24,249 nt of DNA. Source: a virus. Positions 3,302 through 23,158 of this stretch are shown here, piece after piece. The notes under the pieces were generated by a model. The model did no database searches, was not told where the DNA came from, and worked only from the letters and a program-made list of their open reading frames with translations. Position 1 is the first letter of the stretch. The number at the start of each line of letters is the position of its first letter. The DNA is taken from positions 1 to 24,249 of the IMG/VR virus record IMGVR_UViG_3300031521_000346; one strand, written 5' to 3'. Position numbers and translations under genes: made by a program.

Positions 3302-4744
3302 TTAGTTTTGAACCGACTCCACCGGAGCCAATACTACACTTGTAAAATTTATTCCTGCTTCAGCCATTTTTAAACGCTCCTGTTTCACTTCTTCCATTAG
3401 CTCTTCAGGATCACGTCCACGCTCACGGGCAACTTCGCTCCAGGTAGTTAGTCCGGCTGAAATTTGTGCTATGATAGCATTTGTTTCTTTTACCGGGTCA
3501 AGCATTTGTGTGGGTGGTGCCGTCCAATCACTTGCATCGCAATCGATAAATACACCCATTGCACCTACCATCATCAACGAATCCATAAACCACCGCCATA
3601 TAGGTACGCAAACTTGTGGAACCATCATATTGTATTGAAGCTTTCTAAAACGTCCGCTAACGTCAATTTTAGCCATACGCCCACTGGTGAAGTTTACATT
3701 GCTGTAATCCATTGTCAGCATCTCGTATGTAATTTCGTAACCGGCTGCAATTCCTTGCAGTATTTTTTTTGAATATTCCGAATATCCATCCGCAGCAGGA
3801 GGATTTCCGAAATTTACTTGTTCACCTTCCGGTAAATATTGAATTAAGCCTGGTTCAATTCGTTCAGTTAGCTCTGTATCTTCATTCGCTTTAAATTCAT
3901 GCCCTGTAACAAACATGGCAAATGCAGAAGCAATTTTTTGACGCATAAGCTGGGCATCTTCGTAATCGTTGAAATCGCTCATCTTCATAAAGGCAGCTAC
4001 CCCGCTTGGTACACCTCTTACTTGTCCTGCTCTTAGTACTTCGAAAGGTTGAAGAACATCGTCAATAGAAATTAATTCCGATTGAATACCTGTCCAGTTC
4101 GTTGCCATATCATTTGGGTTCGAAGTCCAAACCCAGTAGCCTGTTTTCAAACCTTCTTTGTTGAACTGCACACCTAACCGGCAATAACCTTCTTCGTTTA
4201 CAAAATTTCGTTGGTGGTCGAGTTGGTCGCCTTCCAAGACTTGTATTTTTATTGGTATTGGGTTAAACCTGGTAGGCTTAACCCGCCTGCGGATAATTAA
4301 GCAATCACCACCCTCTGAGATTTCGGACATGATCAATTGTTGCAATCCGTAGAAAGTATTATTTCCATCCCAGTCGCATTCGGTACTCTCTGCCCAATGC
4401 TTCCAAAATTGTTTTATCTTTTTTATCTGTGGACGGGTACCGGTGGTTGGTGCCGGGCGAATACCTTCTCCCACTGTATTCGTTACTATCACTCCTAAGG
4501 CTCGCTTAGCCCAACCATTGTTCCGTACAAAACTTCTACTTCTATTCCGCAACGTTGTAAGTGCTACGCCTATTTCAGCATTAGGACCGTTGGAAGTAGC
4601 ACCTTTCATGCTCTTGTTTCTACGGCCATACTGTGCAGCTTCGTAACTTCTACGTGCATTAGCGCGCTTCAACCCCGCTTTTGGATTTATGTACGCTATT
4701 GTTCGGTCGAGTATGTTCACTATTTTTTTAGAATCCCCTGTCAT
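3302..4744 (-). CDS. Phage portal protein, lambda gpB family
   Basis: The 480-residue product forms the dodecameric ring at the capsid vertex through which DNA enters and leaves. It looks like the lambda-type portal family (Phage_portal_2): an Arg-rich N-terminus (KRANARRSYEAA), RSFVRNNGWAKRALGVIVTNTVGEGI, GGDCLIIRR, then AMFVTGHEF and QGIAAGYEITYEMLTMDYSNVNFTSGR with CVPIWRWFMD. These are the conserved wing and crown segments. The length is near the family norm. The gene overlaps the gpW-like gene upstream by 17 bases and is followed by the capsid fusion, as in lambda (W, B, C/E). Start is ATG at 4744. Confidence 0.9.
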   Translation of the reverse strand: MTGDSKKIVNILDRTIAYINPKAGLKRANARRSYEAAQYGRRNKSMKGATSNGPNAEIGVALTTLRNRSRSFVRNNGWAKRALGVIVTNTVGEGIRPAPTTGTRPQIKKIKQFWKHWAESTECDWDGNNTFYGLQQLIMSEISEGGDCLIIRRRVKPTRFNPIPIKIQVLEGDQLDHQRNFVNEEGYCRLGVQFNKEGLKTGYWVWTSNPNDMATNWTGIQSELISIDDVLQPFEVLRAGQVRGVPSGVAAFMKMSDFNDYEDAQLMRQKIASAFAMFVTGHEFKANEDTELTERIEPGLIQYLPEGEQVNFGNPPAADGYSEYSKKILQGIAAGYEITYEMLTMDYSNVNFTSGRMAKIDVSGRFRKLQYNMMVPQVCVPIWRWFMDSLMMVGAMGVFIDCDASDWTAPPTQMLDPVKETNAIIAQISAGLTTWSEVARERGRDPEELMEEVKQERLKMAEAGINFTSVVLAPVESVQN

Positions 4745-4928
4745 ACTCGCAAGTCTTTCGACGTATTATTTTAGAATTTGATCCTAACTCAGACTCCATA
4801 TCTTGCTTAATTCGCTTCATTTCCGTAAGAGAGCGATAAGTAATTTTCTTATCTCCATATTCCACGGTAGTAGCACCGAGCGCAATTGCTTCGGTTATCT
4901 TATCAAGTTGTGATTGTGTATAGGCCAT
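4728..4928 (-). CDS. Head-tail connector, gpW-like
   Basis: The product is a 66-residue protein beginning MAYTQSQLDKITEAIALG, followed by VEYGDKKITYRSLTEMKRIKQDME. This helix, beta-hairpin (about VEYGDKKITYRS), helix layout is that of lambda gpW, which joins head to tail beneath the portal. The frame extends upstream to an ATG at 4970, but the 14 extra residues (MQLTISIQIDLLKL) do not fit the family, so ATG 4928 is chosen. It overlaps the portal gene by 17 bases. In lambda, W sits between the large terminase A and the portal B. Here the DGR cassette and the PcfJ/PcfK genes have come between terminase and gpW. Confidence 0.75.
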   Translation of the reverse strand: MAYTQSQLDKITEAIALGATTVEYGDKKITYRSLTEMKRIKQDMESELGSNSKIIRRKTCEYDRGF

Positions 4929-5533: not shown

Positions 5534-6826
5534 TTATGCTGTTTGCTTTTGTTTAGTGAGTTCTTTTATCTTCCTGATATTTTTATTCATCAGTTGGATA
5601 ATCCGATCGTGATGTTTGGAACTTTGATTGTACTTTCCACGGCATTGAAGTATTTTGAAATTCTTAAGGCAAATCTCAATTGTTTCAACCGGTTCGTTTT
5701 CAATACTTGCACTCAATACCAATGAATCAGGCTTACTGAAATAATTATTGGTAAATACACAATGGTGAAGCTTGTCGCCCTCTTCCACATACTCCTGAAC
5801 ACTTTCAAGTACTTTGATTAATATAAATCCATCGGAGAAGCTAAGACCTATAAATTTTTCTTTGAGTGTTTTGAATGCCGCTTCATTTTCAATTGCCCGG
5901 GCTTTTCTTCGCTCTTCATCTTGTTTTTTCTGAATGGCTCGTTTCTTTTCCATTAGCTTATCATGTACTTTCTTCAAATCCTTTGGGCAAACATAATGGG
6001 CATTTCGTAAATCTTTGTGGAAGTAGTTGAGTAAGTCAAGATAATCAAACCAAATATCTGCATCTTTCACAGTATATTTATTTCTCATACATATTTTTAT
6101 TGATGGCCAATATACGTTAAATTTTCCTTTCTTATCAATACGAAAAGAGAATAAAGAGTACTGTTTGGCTTTTAACAGTGTTTCAGCATAAGAATCGTTA
6201 GGAACTGTTTTTATTGCTTCCAGTACTGTTGCTCCTCGTAAATTATGATTGATTCCAATTTTCAAATATTCCGGCTTGTAAATAGATTCCGGATGAAATT
6301 TGAAAGGATATACATCGTATTTGTCAGATGCATAATAGTTTCTACCGTAATCTTTTCTTATTTCCATATTTCCATTCCATGAATCGCAGTAATAATTAAC
6401 GGTGTGATTTCGGGCGACCACCTCATGTTTTTTATCGTTCAAAATCCAATGCTGAAGTATTTCACTAATGTAATATTTCACCTGATTATCTGCTTTGTGA
6501 TATGAGTACACTTCAAAGTTTCGTATAACCTGAAAATCATTGACAATTTCAGCAGAAGCTATAAATAAATGTTGCTTTAATGTTCGTTCACGGGTTTGAA
6601 TAATATTCAGTTTTGTACTACAATGAGGACAAACAGCTCGTTTCCGACTTACTAATTCAGTAGAAAATTTTTTTCCGCATTCAAGACATATAACTCGGTT
6701 CTTTGTTGCGTAACCTTTATGATCCAAACATTTAATCTTTGCCCATGAAAGCATTTTACTTTCAATATCTGTTAGGTGTTGACTCAGGTCAATTACGGCA
6801 AATTGCAGTTTTGTTTTTGGCTTCAT
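5534..6826 (-). CDS. PcfJ-like protein
   Basis: The 430-residue product has the hallmarks of the PcfJ family, named after an Enterococcus conjugative-plasmid protein and common in Bacteroidota phages and mobile elements. Near the N-terminus is a zinc-ribbon-like set of cysteines (Cys47, Cys50 in CLECGKKF; Cys66, Cys69 in CPHCSTKL). The middle is long and helical, with a strongly charged stretch (KKRAIQKKQDEERRKARAIE). The C-terminal signature is VEEGDKLHHCVFTNNYF followed by ETIEICLKNFKILQCRGKYN. The biochemical role is not established. The gene starts 3 bases after the PcfK stop, so the two are very likely made together. Start is ATG at 6826. Confidence 0.8.
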   Translation of the reverse strand: MKPKTKLQFAVIDLSQHLTDIESKMLSWAKIKCLDHKGYATKNRVICLECGKKFSTELVSRKRAVCPHCSTKLNIIQTRERTLKQHLFIASAEIVNDFQVIRNFEVYSYHKADNQVKYYISEILQHWILNDKKHEVVARNHTVNYYCDSWNGNMEIRKDYGRNYYASDKYDVYPFKFHPESIYKPEYLKIGINHNLRGATVLEAIKTVPNDSYAETLLKAKQYSLFSFRIDKKGKFNVYWPSIKICMRNKYTVKDADIWFDYLDLLNYFHKDLRNAHYVCPKDLKKVHDKLMEKKRAIQKKQDEERRKARAIENEAAFKTLKEKFIGLSFSDGFILIKVLESVQEYVEEGDKLHHCVFTNNYFSKPDSLVLSASIENEPVETIEICLKNFKILQCRGKYNQSSKHHDRIIQLMNKNIRKIKELTKQKQTA

Positions 6827-6829
6827 AAC

Positions 6830-7243
6830 TTACTCATCGAATAGTGAGAATGATTGTTCTAGTTTCTTTGGTTTCTTTGTTTCAACTGGCTTATTTTGCA
6901 TTCTTTCCATTTCTTTGGCAATGACAGTTTCGATAGCCTTTTCTTTGGCTTGTTTGAGTTCGTCAGTTGATAGTTCTACCGTATGGTTGACAACTACCTT
7001 TGCATTCACTGGCTTACCAACTTCGATATTTTCCTCATCATAGTAGTGAATGGCCATTCCAAATATTTCAAAATCAGAGAATCCATTACAACCGCTTTTT
7101 TGAACCTGATTAAGAATATAGGTACAGCAGTCATCAATGTTCTTTTTATCATTCGAATATGTTACAGCAAAAAGACTATCTGTTTCAGCCTTATTATCTA
7201 AATAAGACTTTATTGTTTCCTTGAAAGAGTCTGTTGATTTCAT
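6830..7243 (-). CDS. PcfK-like protein
   Basis: The product has 137 residues matching the layout of the PcfK family: an N-terminal helix with MKSTDSFKETIKSYLDNKAETD, a Cys-Cys segment (KNIDDCCTYILNQVQKSG), then FEIFGMAIHYYDEENIEVG, and a Lys/Glu-rich tail ending QSFSLFDE. The tail resembles partner-binding peptides such as clamp-binding motifs (Q-S-x-S-L-F), an inference worth testing. PcfK usually travels with PcfJ, which follows 3 bases downstream here. Function is unknown. The gene sits 19 bases after the DGR-associated 105-residue protein, so it probably shares its transcript. Confidence 0.75.
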   Translation of the reverse strand: MKSTDSFKETIKSYLDNKAETDSLFAVTYSNDKKNIDDCCTYILNQVQKSGCNGFSDFEIFGMAIHYYDEENIEVGKPVNAKVVVNHTVELSTDELKQAKEKAIETVIAKEMERMQNKPVETKKPKKLEQSFSLFDE

Positions 7244-7262: not shown

Positions 7263-7580
7263 TTATGTAAATTGAAAAGTTCTATTATTTCCAGTCCCAA
7301 ATTTCTGTGGTTTAATAACCGTTTTAAAAGGGAAGTCCACTTTATTTATTTTGTCCAAAGCCTCTTTTATCGGAGTGGCATTTGTAAAGAACTTTCGTTC
7401 CTCATTTTCATATCGAATTCGTACTACATATCTACCATCTCCATACTTTGTTTTTACGTCAGTGGCAAAATCCAATACTTCAATTTCGCAATTCGTCACA
7501 TCTGTAATTGATATTTGTTGCACCTGGAATATATTTTTATCTTCATTAAGCTTTATCCCCAGATCAGAGAAATTTTTCAT
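7263..7580 (-). CDS. Uncharacterised protein coupled to the DGR RT
   Basis: The product has 105 residues and is predicted to be mostly beta: ISITDVTNCEIEVLDFATDV, KYGDGRYVVRIRYENEERKFF, then a helix (PIKEALDKI) and a last strand pair ending FGTGNNRTFQFT. The pattern could be a small OB-like or other nucleic-acid-binding barrel, but I do not recognise the family with certainty. Its ATG lies inside the 3' end of the reverse transcriptase gene (17-base overlap), so translation is probably coupled. It does not look like Avd, which is a four-helix bundle. It occupies a place where a DGR accessory factor could be encoded. Confidence 0.6.
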   Translation of the reverse strand: MKNFSDLGIKLNEDKNIFQVQQISITDVTNCEIEVLDFATDVKTKYGDGRYVVRIRYENEERKFFTNATPIKEALDKINKVDFPFKTVIKPQKFGTGNNRTFQFT

Positions 7581-8550
7581 CCTTTAGTATGGTTTTTAGT
7601 AAGTGTTTAGAGTCGCAATGTTTTGCCCATCCCATGTGCGATGCAATTGCCATTCTATACGCTTTCGGTTCTAAGTCTTTTTTATTTAGTTTTGCTACCT
7701 TTCGGCAAAACCGTACTTTAATTGTTTTCCGCATTAATGTATGCGTATGGTAGAACTTATATCCTACAAAGTCAATCCCGCGAGTTGCTATAGGGAATAC
7801 CTGATAGTTGCCTTTTAGTTGTAGGTTTAATCTATCCGTCAGATAGTCGTTTATATCAACCAGTAATCCATGCAAATAGGGTTTATCCGGTGCGAGTATC
7901 ACTATATCATCCGCGTATCGGTAGTAATACTTAATCCTCTTATCCTCCTTAATCCAATGGTCAAAATACGTCAGATATAAATTCGCCAGGAACTGAGAGA
8001 GATAATTTCCAATTGGAACTCCGGGAGCCGAATCAATAATTTCATCAAGTAGTTTCAAAAGTCGAACGTCCTTTATTTTCTTTCGAATAATTCCCTTCAG
8101 AATGGCGTGGTCAACGCTTGGGTAAAATTTCCTAATATCCATTTTCAAGCAATACTGTGTGTTTTCAATATCTTTTAAATCATGTTTGATGTGTTTTAAA
8201 ACACCATTTATGCCACGGCCTTTAATACAGGCGTATGTATGTGAAATAAACGTTGACACCCATATTTCACCCACTACGTTCATAATGGCATGGTGAACGA
8301 CTCGATCACGGAACGGTAATCGGTATACGTCTCGTTCCTTTGGGTCATAAATCTTGAAAACACTGTATTCCGAAGTGCGGTAGCATCCGCTTATTAATTC
8401 GGCTTGTATCGCCTCCATATTGCTTTCAAAATTCTTATCAAATAGCACCAATCCGTATGATTTAGCCTTTCCGTGTTTTGCCTTCATATATGCTTCGTAC
8501 AAATTTTCAGTACTGCAAATTGTATCGTATAGGTTTGATATTCTTTTCAT
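7564..8550 (-). CDS. Diversity-generating retroelement reverse transcriptase
   Basis: This 328-residue reverse transcriptase copies the template-repeat RNA with errors at adenines and feeds the cDNA into target genes. Visible motifs are LPFRDRVVHHAIM (residues 78-90), the first catalytic Asp in DIRKFYPS (138-145), the motif-4 sequence GVPIGNYLSQ (177-186), and the active-site box YADD (212-215). G-x-x-x-SQ in motif 4 is characteristic of DGR enzymes. The length is close to other DGR RTs, and there is no endonuclease or maturase domain. The adjacent template repeat and three adenine-diverged variable repeats confirm the class. It starts at ATG 8550, 103 bases after the template repeat, and overlaps the next gene by 17 bases. 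Confidence 0.95.
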   Translation of the reverse strand: MKRISNLYDTICSTENLYEAYMKAKHGKAKSYGLVLFDKNFESNMEAIQAELISGCYRTSEYSVFKIYDPKERDVYRLPFRDRVVHHAIMNVVGEIWVSTFISHTYACIKGRGINGVLKHIKHDLKDIENTQYCLKMDIRKFYPSVDHAILKGIIRKKIKDVRLLKLLDEIIDSAPGVPIGNYLSQFLANLYLTYFDHWIKEDKRIKYYYRYADDIVILAPDKPYLHGLLVDINDYLTDRLNLQLKGNYQVFPIATRGIDFVGYKFYHTHTLMRKTIKVRFCRKVAKLNKKDLEPKAYRMAIASHMGWAKHCDSKHLLKTILKDEKFL

Positions 8551-8653
8551 CGCTTTGCTTTTCTTATCAGAGCGTTCAGTTTCCCTACTAACACCTTTTG
8601 AGTTTGTTATTTTTTGGCAAGAGCCAGGGCCTATGTTTTTGTAATATTTTTAG
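8551..8653 (-). ncRNA. 3' part of the DGR template RNA (TR-RT spacer)
   Basis: No gene lies between the template repeat and the RT start. In known DGRs the template RNA extends past the repeat into this spacer, which folds and recruits the RT complex. The 103 bases hold a short GGC-TCTT-GCC hairpin (8625-8616) followed by a run of A on the minus strand, and a purine-rich end just before the RT ATG. The role is inferred from DGR architecture; ends are approximate. Confidence 0.5.
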
Positions 8654-8734
8654 CAATGCTGAGACCTGTTCCCCGCATTCGCATTCGAGTAGTTGTAATT
8701 CGTATTGTTGAAAACAAAACCACCTGAGGACAGC
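8654..8734 (-). repeat. DGR template repeat (TR)
   Basis: This ~81-bp sequence is the donor for three variable repeats. Read on the minus strand in the target frame, it would encode LSSGGFVF followed by an Asn-rich stretch (NNTNYNYSNANAGN) made of AAC/AAT codons, then a TAA just past its end. Aligned to the variable repeats, the invariant parts (GGTGGTTTTGTTTTC and the GCGGGG core) are identical. Nearly all differences fall at template adenines, the signature of adenine-specific DGR mutagenesis. It lies between the last target gene and the RT, the usual DGR order. Bases 8654-8670 hold the IMH*-like end. Confidence 0.95.
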
Positions 8735-8761
8735 TCACAAAAACATACAGCCTTTTAATAT

Positions 8762-9148
8762 TTACCCCTGTAAAAATTTAGCGTAGATTTCAGGGAATTT
8801 CCGACCTGCATCAGCTGCTGTTTTCTCTTTTAAGAAACAAAGCCGAGACCCGCTCCCCGCATTCGCAGGCGAGCAGTAGTAAGACGTAATGTAGAAAACA
8901 AAACCACCCGAGGACATACGAAACCAAGGAAGCCATTTTTCTTGATTACCATTTTCCCAATCTACTTGTTCACCTTCGTTATAAGCTTTTGCAAGAACGG
9001 TACCCATGTACTGAGCTTTGAAATATTCTCGCAACTCTTCCGGTGCATCTGAAAACTCAGGAACAGCAGGACTACCTGACAATTTAAGAGCATCTTCGAA
9101 TGAATTAATTAATTCAGTAACATCTTGTTTTTTTTCTACATTTTCCAT
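8762..9148 (-). CDS. DGR target protein, C-type lectin-like fold (target 3)
   Basis: The 128-residue product is the shortest of three tandem DGR targets. Residues 1-70 are helical and acidic and differ from the other two. Residues of about 65-75 (GNQEKWLPWFRM) lead into the variable segment at about 78-104, which begins SSGGFVFYITSYY and ends GSRLCF. The SSGGFVF...GSRLCF frame is typical of the small C-type-lectin-like proteins common in Bacteroidota phages. In known DGRs such folds display variable residues for ligand binding. All 13 changes relative to the template within the repeat are at template adenines. The gene is closest to the template repeat (27-base gap). Start is ATG at 9148, preceded by a GCC-4-GGC hairpin. 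Confidence 0.85.
   Translation of the reverse strand: MENVEKKQDVTELINSFEDALKLSGSPAVPEFSDAPEELREYFKAQYMGTVLAKAYNEGEQVDWENGNQEKWLPWFRMSSGGFVFYITSYYCSPANAGSGSRLCFLKEKTAADAGRKFPEIYAKFLQG
8838..8916 (-). repeat. DGR variable repeat in target 3
   Basis: Aligned on the minus strand with the template, it shows 13 substitutions, all at the 21 adenines of the template, and none elsewhere. Variable codons include TAC, ATT, TCT, TGC, CCT and AGC where the template has AAC, AAT or TAC. The 3' end reads GGGTCTCGGCTTTG, where the template has AGGTCTCAGCATTG (IMH versus IMH*). Confidence 0.93.
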
Positions 9149-9164
9149 ATGTTTGAGTTTTTAT

Positions 9165-9174
9165 GCCGTTTGGC
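9165..9174 (-). other. Small leader hairpin GCC-4-GGC before target 3
   Basis: On the minus strand GCC-AAAC-GGCATAAAA lies 17 bases before the ATG at 9148. A very similar element (GCC-ATAA-GGCATAAAA) precedes the gene starting at 20401. It could affect translation or mark mobile gene insertion. The stem is only 3 bp, so function is uncertain. Confidence 0.3.
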
Positions 9175-9185
9175 GATTTTAATTA

Positions 9186-9662
9186 TTAATTTTCTGCTAA
9201 AATCTTGTAATATTCTACAAACTGTTTCGCTGCATATTCTGCATATTCCGGTTTTTCGAAACAAAGCCGAGACCCGAGCCCCGCAATCGCAGTCGAGTCG
9301 TAGTAATACGTATCGTAGAAAACAAAACCACCCGAGGACAGATTGTAATATGCATAGTATTTCTTTTGATTACCGTTGAAAATATCAGCAACCCAATCGC
9401 CATTGAATGCTTTTGTTATCTCTACCAATTTTCTACGTACAATTTCAAACTCGGTTAAACCGGCTGACAATAATAAATTTTCATTCATTGGAGTTGTACC
9501 GTTCTCCAGACAAGCATCCTCATATCTTTTTATCCGATCAGTAATTTTCTTAGAGAAAAAATCTTTCCCAAAATTCTTTTCAAAAACTTTCTTCCATGCA
9601 GGAGTTGCAGTTTTATACAATTCACGAGCTTCTAGCTCATCGACAACTATTGCTTTTTCCAT
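9186..9662 (-). CDS. DGR target protein, C-type lectin-like fold (target 2)
   Basis: The product has 158 residues. The N-terminal half is helical and shares clear blocks with target 1: FGKDFFSKKITDRIKRYEDAC (about residues 31-51), then a helix with LTEFEIVRRKLVEIT. GNQKKYYAYYNL leads to the variable segment (about 108-133), which begins SSGGFVFYDTYYYD and ends GSRLCF. The C-terminal helix AEYAAKQFVEYYKILAEN follows. There are no signal peptide, membrane or tail-fibre repeat domains, so the protein is little more than a helical base plus a variable lectin-like head. It ends 37 bases before target 3 starts and its ATG follows the stop of target 1 by 1 base. Confidence 0.87.
   Translation of the reverse strand: MEKAIVVDELEARELYKTATPAWKKVFEKNFGKDFFSKKITDRIKRYEDACLENGTTPMNENLLLSAGLTEFEIVRRKLVEITKAFNGDWVADIFNGNQKKYYAYYNLSSGGFVFYDTYYYDSTAIAGLGSRLCFEKPEYAEYAAKQFVEYYKILAEN
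9262..9341 (-). repeat. DGR variable repeat in target 2
   Basis: Compared with the template, 12 of 21 adenines are changed. There is one exception outside adenine: the seventh codon of the variable core is GAC where the template has TAC (T to G). The 3' end has GGGTCTCGGCTTTG as in the other targets. Confidence 0.93.
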
Positions 9663-9663
9663 A

Positions 9664-10143
9664 TTAGTTTTTTGTTAGAATTATGTAATAATCACTGAAT
9701 TTATCCCATGCATCTTTTGCACATTCTTCACTTTTAAACCAAAGCCGAGACCCGTTCCCCGCACCCGCAGACGAGTAGCCGTAACACGTCGTATCGTAGA
9801 AAACAAAACCACCCGAGGACAGCCCTTTAATCCATACACGCCATTTCTTTTGATCTGGGTTGCAAAAATCAGCTTCCCAACCTTCATTGTAAGCACGTGT
9901 TATTGTTTCAATTTTACGTCTTGTGATTTCTACTTCTGTAAATCCATGTTCTTTAAGCGTTTTTTCGTCGAGTGGAATTTCTCCAAGTTCTGCGCATGCA
10001 TCCTCATAGCTGTTTATACGATCGGTAATTTTCGTACTGAAAAAATCTTTACCGAAGGCATTTTCTAAAATGTTTTTAAACTCTGTAGAAACCTCTTTAT
10101 AGAGGCTTCTAAACTTTTGATCTCCTAATTGTAGCTGTTTCAT
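9664..10143 (-). CDS. DGR target protein, C-type lectin-like fold (target 1)
   Basis: The 159-residue product is a paralogue of target 2, sharing FGKDFFS-KITDRI--YEDAC near residues 30-50 and the SSGGFVFYDT...GSRLWF frame near 107-134. The variable segment contains one extra codon. The chosen start is ATG 10143 (MKQLQLGDQKFRSLYK), which matches the paralogue in length. An upstream in-frame GTG (10188) would overlap the terminase gene and add 15 unrelated residues. The gene begins 25 bases after the large terminase stop, so it is probably expressed late with packaging and head genes. A leader box (10151-10166) also found before three early genes lies just upstream. Virion location is likely from context but not shown. 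Confidence 0.87.
   Translation of the reverse strand: MKQLQLGDQKFRSLYKEVSTEFKNILENAFGKDFFSTKITDRINSYEDACAELGEIPLDEKTLKEHGFTEVEITRRKIETITRAYNEGWEADFCNPDQKKWRVWIKGLSSGGFVFYDTTCYGYSSAGAGNGSRLWFKSEECAKDAWDKFSDYYIILTKN
9740..9823 (-). repeat. DGR variable repeat in target 1, with a 3-base insertion
   Basis: This 84-bp repeat matches the template apart from adenine sites and one added triplet: where the template has a single ACG, this copy has ACG-ACG. The insertion keeps the frame and lengthens the variable loop by one residue. The match to the template runs a little further at the 5' end (CAG, GC) than in the other two. Confidence 0.92.
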
Positions 10144-10168: not shown

Positions 10169-12022
10169 TCACCAAAAACTTTCACCACGCTTCTTCTTTG
10201 AAGTTACGCGCTCAGTTGTATTTTCTTCTGATGTAGTATTAACTTTTTTCCTTTCGGTTACACCACCCATTGTTTTTAGTTGATCAGGCTTCAATCTATC
10301 CAATCCAACAATGGAAGCTGCTGCCCTGGCATACACCCGGCAATCGAGTGGTTCATTTCTTGCATATCTTTTTATCCACTTATGCTTTTTCTCTAACCAG
10401 TCCTCACCGGTCAACCCTTCGAAATAGCGGTTATCATATTGTGGAAAATGGCAGTAACAAGGTGGATAACTACCATCAACGTAATCAGGTTCTATTTTAA
10501 ACCACTCGTATAACTGAGTTTTCAAAAAGGAAACTCCTATATTCCATTGCTTCAACTTGCCTATTTTCTTTCCATTTTTACTATAATCAATTTGCTTCGG
10601 AGTACTGAATGCTATTTGCATTTTATCCTGTCCCTTTGTTGCAATTACACGCTTATTTCCAAATGCCCGAACAAAATCATATACTTCACTCGTTGCATAA
10701 CCGCTATCAATTGCCACCCTGACTAACTGTAATTCTCGGCCATCATCCGAAATCCATGTTTCATTTACAACTTTTTTCAACTCATCCCACACAGCGGGTA
10801 GAAATGGACTTCCGAGTATTGATCTATAATCAATCGAATAACTGCTTTTATCAGCACACCACCCAACTATTTCAAGTTCTACCCGGTCCTTTTGAACATC
10901 AACGCCTGATGTCAGAAAACAAACATCTGAGTTTACCGAATTCGGAGAATAATTTTCTCTTCGGTTGTAAATCATTTCCCACGAAGGAGCTTCCCCGTTT
11001 TCTTTTACCGTCTCGCCTAAAATTGTATTGACAAAAACGGTCATCTTCTCAGGATTCTTTTTTGCTTTTTCGTATTTTTGCGCTATCTCCTTCCAACTAA
11101 ACCACCCGAAAGGAGAATAAAAACTACTCAAATGAAATCCTATTTTTTCGGGGTTAGACTTTTCAGGCATTGAAGGAATCCATTCTCCGGCTTCCCACAT
11201 TTGATTTTTAAATCTTTCCTCAATTAAAGCTCCACATTCGATACATGCCATTTTAGCATCCTGTATGTAATTTGTTTCTGAATCATAGATAAGATTTTCA
11301 AGTTTCAAAACTTGTTTGGTTCCACAATGCGGACATGGAACATGAAAGTAATGCTGATCTGTTTCTTCGAAAGCCGACTCTATCGCACTATGTCCGTCAA
11401 CCGTTGGAGTAGAAATGATAAATATCTTTTTCTTTGCAAACGTGCGTGTACGTGCTTCGGCAAGCTCTATCGGTGACCCCTCACCGTTCAAATCCTCAGG
11501 ATAACCATCCACCTCATCAAGAAAAACATTTCGTATGGGTATGGACCGTAACCCCACCGGGCTGTTGGCACCTGCCATAAGTAATACTCCACTCGGAAAG
11601 TTTTTTTGTGTAATCGTGTTTTCACCGCTACGGCTTTTTGCCTTCGAAACTTTCTTTTTCAATGATGGGCAACTTTCTATCATTGGCTCAATTCGCATTT
11701 TACTGTTACGCTTAACTGTATCATCCGTTGGCTGAACCATTAGAGTAGGAGCGGGTGAATTATCAATGATATACCCAATCCAGTTGTTACCCGCTTCTGT
11801 AAATCCAAGCTGTGCCCCCTTCATTACCACTACCCACATGTACGAAGAATAAACCGAAAGGCAATCCATTATCTTTTTCAAGTAAGGCGTTCTACTTGTA
11901 CGCCATCGCCCAGGTTCTGAAGCAGCTTCAGCAGATAAATACCTATTTTCGTCTGCCCATTCCGATACTGTCATCTTCGGTATAGGCTTTAATCCGTCTA
12001 AAAATCCGCGTATTAGTTCCAT
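10169..12022 (-). CDS. Terminase large subunit, lambda GpA family
   Basis: The 617-residue product is the motor and nuclease that packages phage DNA into proheads. The N-terminus (TVSEWADENRYLSAEAASEPGRW) is typical of GpA-type terminases. The ATPase has a Walker-A-like KGAQLGFTE (residues 68-76) and Walker B NVFLDEVD (165-172). A zinc-binding insertion has Cys230, Cys233, Cys260 and Cys263. The RNase-H-like nuclease begins at SGVDVQKDR, with Asp375 a likely metal ligand and AIDSGYATSEV later. Length fits the family. Its ATG overlaps the ASCH stop as TAATG. In lambda the next genes are W and B; here the DGR targets follow directly. GpA relatives usually cut at cos sites. Confidence 0.95.
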   Translation of the reverse strand: MELIRGFLDGLKPIPKMTVSEWADENRYLSAEAASEPGRWRTSRTPYLKKIMDCLSVYSSYMWVVVMKGAQLGFTEAGNNWIGYIIDNSPAPTLMVQPTDDTVKRNSKMRIEPMIESCPSLKKKVSKAKSRSGENTITQKNFPSGVLLMAGANSPVGLRSIPIRNVFLDEVDGYPEDLNGEGSPIELAEARTRTFAKKKIFIISTPTVDGHSAIESAFEETDQHYFHVPCPHCGTKQVLKLENLIYDSETNYIQDAKMACIECGALIEERFKNQMWEAGEWIPSMPEKSNPEKIGFHLSSFYSPFGWFSWKEIAQKYEKAKKNPEKMTVFVNTILGETVKENGEAPSWEMIYNRRENYSPNSVNSDVCFLTSGVDVQKDRVELEIVGWCADKSSYSIDYRSILGSPFLPAVWDELKKVVNETWISDDGRELQLVRVAIDSGYATSEVYDFVRAFGNKRVIATKGQDKMQIAFSTPKQIDYSKNGKKIGKLKQWNIGVSFLKTQLYEWFKIEPDYVDGSYPPCYCHFPQYDNRYFEGLTGEDWLEKKHKWIKRYARNEPLDCRVYARAAASIVGLDRLKPDQLKTMGGVTERKKVNTTSEENTTERVTSKKKRGESFW

Positions 12023-22750: not shown

Positions 22751-23158
22751 ATGGATGACACTATAAATCAAAGGATTAATATAATAATAAAAGACAATCA
22801 TATGAATCCTCATTCATTTGCTAAAAGTATTGGTGTTACTCCAAGCACAATAAATTCAATGATTGAGAAAGGTACTAAACCGAGTTATGATTTAATTGTA
22901 AAAATAAAAGAGGTGTATGATGAATATTCATTAGATTGGTTGCTAATGAGAGATGGAGAAAAATTAAAAAAATTATACACTGATAATCTTCAATTAAGCA
23001 CATTAAATGAGAAACAAGAAGTTTATGCTAAAATTGATCCATTGGCTATAATAAAAAGCCAACAGGAAACAATAAATAGACTTACAGATATGCTTTATGA
23101 GCAAAATAAAAAAGTACAGGATGCAAACATGGGTGCAGGGGTTGCCGCTGTAGGGTAA
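22751..23158 (+). CDS. HTH-type phage repressor
   Basis: The product has 135 residues. Residues 1-65 are an XRE-type HTH domain: NQRINIIIKDNHMNPHSFAKSIGVTPSTINSMIEKGTKPS split at the turn, followed by YDLIVKIKEVYDEYSLDWLLMRDGEKL. The rest holds a helix suited to oligomerisation (IIKSQQETINRLTDMLYEQNKK) and a short Gly/Ala tail. There is no S24 peptidase domain, so inactivation by RecA-type self-cleavage is unlikely; induction must use another route, such as an antirepressor. This is the common repressor form in Bacteroidota prophages. The gene is divergent from the early operon, with the operator array 44 bases before its ATG. Confidence 0.85.
   Translation: MDDTINQRINIIIKDNHMNPHSFAKSIGVTPSTINSMIEKGTKPSYDLIVKIKEVYDEYSLDWLLMRDGEKLKKLYTDNLQLSTLNEKQEVYAKIDPLAIIKSQQETINRLTDMLYEQNKKVQDANMGAGVAAVG

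Follow-up and report, generated by a model that had tools for sequence, protein, structure and literature searches.

A complete diversity-generating retroelement with three small tandem targets and a candidate OB-fold-like accessory protein in a tailed phage contig

The diversity-generating retroelement (DGR) of Bordetella phage BPP-1, organised as mtd-avd-TR-brt, combines adenine mutagenesis between a template repeat (TR) and a variable repeat (VR) with a single tail-fibre target and the accessory protein Avd. The structured spacer of this element recruits RT-Avd (PMC12875486). DGRs with multiple targets and Avd-less lineages are already known (PMC6642488, PMC7290462), and about one DGR in four lacks any recognised accessory gene (PMC7290462). 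The DGRs of crAss-like phages, which PMC7290462 cites as lineage 3 of Wu et al., follow the order target-TR-RT without avd and have one large tail protein as target. In Treponema denticola, an HRDC accessory ORF overlaps the reverse transcriptase (RT) gene in every cassette, and the multiple targets are cellular lipoproteins (PMC4891356). Finally, PMC10743442 describes phage DGRs that have two targets and carry tentaclins, proteins of 313–649 aa with an N-terminal C-lec VR and Ig domains.

Here we describe the DGR of IMGVR_UViG_3300031521_000346, where the window analysed is the whole IMG/VR record, a linear viral contig of 24,249 b. This cassette shares with BPP-1 the TR/VR adenine mutagenesis, a related RT and a structured RNA between TR and RT that parallels the BPP-1 spacer, but it has three small targets, no Avd and an OB-fold-like protein at the 3' end of the RT gene. 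With the crAss-like phage DGRs it has in common the gene order, the absence of avd, an RT about 57% identical and the same spacer RNA, whereas several small targets replace the large tail protein and the OB-like ORF was detected only on our side of the comparison. It resembles the T. denticola DGR in its multiple targets and in the ORF that overlaps the RT gene, which encodes an OB-like protein instead of HRDC. As in the tentaclin phages, there is more than one target per cassette; however, the targets are paralogues of only 128–159 aa with the VR near the C-terminus, and they were therefore not taken to be tentaclins.

Cassette anatomy and adenine-specific variation

The record encodes the head module of a tailed phage, with both the small and the large terminase subunit as well as portal, capsid, cement and head-tail genes. 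The DGR lies on the minus strand, flanked by terminase and PcfK/PcfJ-like genes, in the order target 1, target 2, target 3, TR, spacer, RT and a 105-aa ORF (Table 1). The PcfJ-/PcfK-like genes, at 5534–7243, have the DGR on one side and the portal gene on the other, and PcfJ/PcfK-like pairs were also observed about 6 kb past the RT in two related loci (L073 and L078). The preliminary description had placed the cassette in a prophage. A prophage is only suggested, by a CI-like repressor: the record holds phage genes and no host DNA, and no integrase was found among its scanned ORFs.

Table 1. Features of the DGR and of its surroundings in the window.
Feature	Position	Strand	Evidence
OB-fold-like protein, 105 aa, candidate DGR accessory factor, overlaps RT gene 3' end	7263–7580	-	phrog_19665; homologues adjoin RT in nearly all relatives
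DGR reverse transcriptase, 328 aa, YADD, IGNYLSQ	7564–8550	-	Pfam RVT_1 1.2e-14; phrog_1423 2.6e-124; PDB 8ub7_A
TR-to-RT spacer RNA, two helices	8551–8644	-	Covariation
Template repeat TR, non-coding, 21 adenines in core	8654–8734	-	TR/VR comparison
Target 3, "short" type, 128 aa	8762–9148	-	Open frame
Variable repeat VR3	8838–8916	-	13/13 mismatches at TR adenines
Target 2, "long" type, 158 aa	9186–9662	-	Open frame; AF2 model
Variable repeat VR2	9262–9341	-	12/13 mismatches at TR adenines
Target 1, "long" type, 159 aa	9664–10143	-	Open frame
Variable repeat VR1, 3-nt in-frame insertion	9740–9822	-	13/13 mismatches at TR adenines
Terminase large subunit (upstream neighbour)	10169–12022	-	Pfam GpA_ATPase 5e-88
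CI-like HTH repressor, the record's only lysogeny hint	22751–23158	+	Pfam HTH_3 2e-6

In this cassette the DGR is complete, with a single TR and three tandem targets, as had been proposed from the first inspection: RT, TR, VRs and open target genes are all present, each VR lies within the 3' part of its gene, and the TR lies outside the target genes. Each of the three VRs showed 13 differences from the TR over 79–80 aligned core bases, and 38 of these 39 substitutions fall at TR adenines, the sole exception being a T to G change in VR2 (hypergeometric P of 8e-10 for VR3, 6e-8 for VR2 and 6e-10 for VR1). This agrees with the preliminary description, both in the adenine-only mismatches with one exception and in the 13 and 12 of 21 template adenines changed in targets 3 and 2. 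When a VR was taken as the template, the adenine bias disappeared, which fixes the direction from TR to VR.

Two details of the repeats had escaped the preliminary description, although its adenine pattern holds. One is the insertion in VR1, which consists of one extra ACG codon, and the other is that four of the adenine differences (TCA to TCG, AGG to GGG, CAG to CGG and CAT to CTT) are common to all three VRs. Because of these, free variation is seen at only 9, 8 and 9 of the 17 core adenines in VR3, VR2 and VR1, respectively. As they are identical in all targets, we take the fixed differences to delimit the segment that is rewritten and to set IMH apart from IMH*, the 3' end being CAGCAT in the TR and CGGCTT in every VR. 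Like differences are fixed in the relatives, where they occur at both ends of the repeats.

Enumeration of all changes from A to any base confirmed that none can create a stop codon, but the mutable codons are not just AAY, TAC and ACG as had been stated, since TCA, AGG, CAG and CAT also bear adenines. The earlier figure of 4^17 sequences per target is arithmetically right, and at the protein level it corresponds to about 15^7 × 4^3 variants per target, i.e., about 1e10. Among relatives, 213 TR/VR pairs differed at 3491 of 5124 TR adenines and at 49–230 of 3890–4870 positions for each other base, a contrast that is biased upward by a repeat finder that allowed few non-A mismatches.

Reverse transcriptase clade, spacer RNA and OB-fold-like protein

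The RT carries the DGR-type GxxxSQ and YxDD motifs, read as IGNYLSQ and YADD in the translation, in line with the initial reading. Its best PDB match was 8ub7_A "Reverse transcriptase", which we take to be the BPP-1 enzyme (E 2e-60 vs 6e-16 for a group II intron RT). A group II intron, retron or DRT defence RT was rejected, given weaker matches only and the presence of TR and VRs. Most relatives of this RT belong to cassettes with the order long target, short target, TR and RT at nearly constant spacing. Two targets are present in most of them, and three local ones in about ten of those fetched, so that the arrangement of one template and three targets, correctly seen before, is not unusual here. 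Genes next to the cassette vary from relative to relative, which indicates that it moves as a unit.

RT matches in genomes came mostly from Bacteroidota. In a quick tree with long deep branches, the window RT fell inside a large clade, and nine more distant RTs formed a separate group, where Pfam detected HRDC among the ORFs of five loci and bAvd among those of three. No Pfam match to Avd or HRDC was obtained for the ORFs of the window cassette. A hidden Avd was also considered and rejected, as the coding strand offers no further 60-aa ORF in the interval from target 3 to the RT. The cassette thus appears to belong to an Avd-less, mainly Bacteroidota-associated clade, the Avd/HRDC scan having covered the window cassette and the nine-RT outside group rather than every clade member.

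Two parts that are distinctive for this clade had been overlooked in a parts list that otherwise stands for RT, TR, VRs and targets. The first is the structured RNA of the TR-to-RT spacer, of about 95 nt, in which positions 8626–8623 pair with 8618–8615 (helix 1), and 8595–8594 plus 8592–8591 pair with 8573–8572 plus 8570–8569 (helix 2). In an alignment of 25 sequences, 100% of the cells were paired, with 27 changed on both sides vs 5.5 in shuffles, and slid controls brought pairing down to 30–49%. The resulting RNA model scored 102 bits on the window and detected the RNA in 64 of 75 related loci, as a rule immediately upstream of the RT; in two loci with extra sequence before the RT (L016, L067), the RNA stays beside the TR. 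Two crAss-like phages also carry it, and a search of four distant loci (L157, L159, L160, L163) was negative. The structure is visible only in the alignment, since folding of the single sequence was no better than shuffles (z of 0.1 for the window); Rfam gave no match in the window.

The second part is the 105-aa ORF. Of 81 viral loci, window included, 77 carry a homologue beside the RT, the other four being one cut-off locus, one nearly so, one with a divergent copy and one without the ORF (L059). The same was true of 65 of 80 genome loci, and of 37 genomes with the DGR, 35 had exactly one copy of the gene and the remaining two had two copies each. When 395 Bacteroidota genomes were sampled, the gene occurred in six, always beside an RT of at least 45% identity, and these were the genomes with the six closest RTs (E ≤ 1e-89); it was absent from the sampled genomes with RTs of at most 41% identity. 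A search with the single protein returned close relatives only, every one of them beside an RT. The gene is located behind the RT or, in some cassettes of the C-lec type, between target and TR; this place, that of Avd, is the one it takes in several relatives (L112–L114, L127). In three cassettes with small-type targets (L065, L068, L069), it was likewise observed before the RT, between targets and TR.

The AF2 model of this protein (pLDDT 85) presents the order E-E-E-H-E-E after two short helices, with the strand order of an OB fold, and its structural neighbours were mostly OB folds, with Z of at most 5.9 over 67 residues. Foldseek against the PDB gave no confident match (best E 0.11), and a sequence profile against the PDB yielded chance-level matches only. 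In the literature searched, outside which Wu et al. 2018 lies, no OB-fold or SSB accessory protein of DGRs was found. That work lists, according to PMC10053308, one more accessory protein without a Pfam entry, which may be this ORF. From its association with the RT, we infer that the 105-aa protein is part of the DGR machinery; most likely, it would bind TR RNA or single-stranded cDNA and take over some of the work of Avd or HRDC.

Target proteins and variation among relatives

The three targets are tandem paralogues that match phrog_11581, a family without annotated function, and no Pfam or NCBIfam family; target 2 had no match in annotated phage records. Its AF2 model is mainly helical, with a hairpin in the VR and a C-terminal helix, the VR being weakly modelled (pLDDT about 65). 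Structural searches returned nothing, with no C-lec among the rows, which does not by itself show a new fold, and a sequence profile against the PDB gave chance-level matches only. However, the last 29 VR columns alone matched targets of sister cassettes (profile, probability 90%, E 1.7e-6), large proteins that are called C-lec by their likeness to described targets and not by a Pfam name. In genome G388 (L218, L230), the TR near the RT (C1:81275) matches the local large C-lec-type target over about 120 nt, and its last 77 nt, i.e., the 3' part only, match a small target 38 kb away (C1:42829), so the variable module is common to both target types. In G343 (L229), another target, 10 kb away, matches the TR as well. 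A survey found annotated VR regions to be systematically C-lec and expected uncharacterised ones to be C-lec variants (PMC8144416). We propose that the targets are probably paralogous, adhesin-like binding tips with a C-lec variable hairpin on a mainly helical body.

The comparison of related copies, suggested in the preliminary description as a check, showed that near-identical relatives vary only or mainly in the VRs at TR adenines. L044 and L046 presented six differences, all at TR adenines of one VR, and none in 8810 other aligned bases; L042 and L049 differed at nine VR positions, all at TR adenines, and at three elsewhere in 7682, and L042 and L047 at 11 VR positions, again all at TR adenines, and at 14 elsewhere in 7865. 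Such VR-confined differences point to DGR activity. In addition, L004 corresponds to L005 plus a tandem duplication that ends inside VRs (L004:4459–5785) and thereby raises the number of targets to three, the middle one being a chimera of the N-part of a short target and the tail of a long one. Taken together, these patterns suggest that sequence variation would come from retrohoming and copy-number variation, probably, from recombination between VRs.

Other relatives have departed from the usual organization. In L037–L039, a single target ends near the RT and no TR is recognisable, and in L045, the target ORF extends to 14 nt before the RT; these four are possibly TR/VR fusions by deletion. 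The RT frame is interrupted in L171, L172 and G343:C20:145208–146164 (apparent frameshift; one TGA); part of the relatives may therefore lack activity.

Proposed mechanism and alternatives

Building on the observed anatomy, adenine specificity, boundary differences, spacer covariation and VR-confined differences of relatives, we propose with good confidence that this DGR of the Avd-less clade works with a spacer-TR RNA, an OB accessory protein and three binding-tip targets. By analogy with the BPP-1 model, the TR and its structured 3' spacer would be transcribed as a single RNA, which the RT would copy with random bases opposite adenines, and the cDNA would then substitute for the rewritten VR segment of any one of the three targets. 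The fixed 3' differences would keep the TR from being a recipient, the OB-fold-like protein would join in by binding the TR RNA or single-stranded cDNA, and each target would present its variable hairpin as a binding tip.

Of the three ways in which this proposal could fail, the one that we regard as possible, though clearly the weaker reading, concerns the targets, which could be other small phage proteins, such as those that decorate the capsid or act in intracellular counter-defence, whose diversification is aimed at a different partner. They are tiny, with a helical N-part and no recognised tail domain, and they lie between the terminase and portal genes in this phage, as the genes of relatives lie near primase, methyltransferase or head protease genes and not near recognised tail fibres; yet the homology of their VR hairpin with that of the C-lec targets argues for binding tips, as does the statement of PMC10743442 that phage DGR targets are usually receptor-binding tail proteins. 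It is rather unlikely, in our view, that the OB-like protein is a hitchhiking phage single-strand-binding protein without a role in retrohoming, the RT needing only its RNA and host factors. The ORF was not detected in crAss-like phages and L152, though both have the spacer RNA, and with L059 also lacking it, it is not needed by every relative; the crAssphage LMMB DGR has been described as without avd altogether (PMC7290462), and the position of the gene within the cassette varies. Against this reading, the gene tracks the RT across unrelated neighbourhoods and both target types, and it occurs nowhere else in the 395 Bacteroidota genomes.

We give still less weight to an intact but silent cassette, in which the adenine differences are a relic of past diversification and the targets are by now ordinary fixed paralogues. 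The VRs of the other two contigs of the same phage (L002, L003) are identical to those of the window, so activity of this copy was not seen, and damaged-looking cassettes exist among the relatives, both those with one target and no TR found and those with broken RT frames. Against a silent element stand the RT, TR, spacer and fixed boundary differences, all intact in the window, the three open target frames, and the close relatives that vary only or mainly in their VRs at TR adenines.

The working cassette that we favour bears on the question of how Avd-less DGRs make and deliver their cDNA. When the BPP-1 system was recently reconstituted, retrohoming proved to be limited by ExoI, a single-strand exonuclease of the host (PMC12875486); a dedicated partner that binds single strands would thus matter for such an element, and a clade-wide companion gene together with a covarying RNA allows a small direct test. 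In addition, the minimal targets, of 120–160 aa, would be convenient scaffolds for studies of targeted protein variation.
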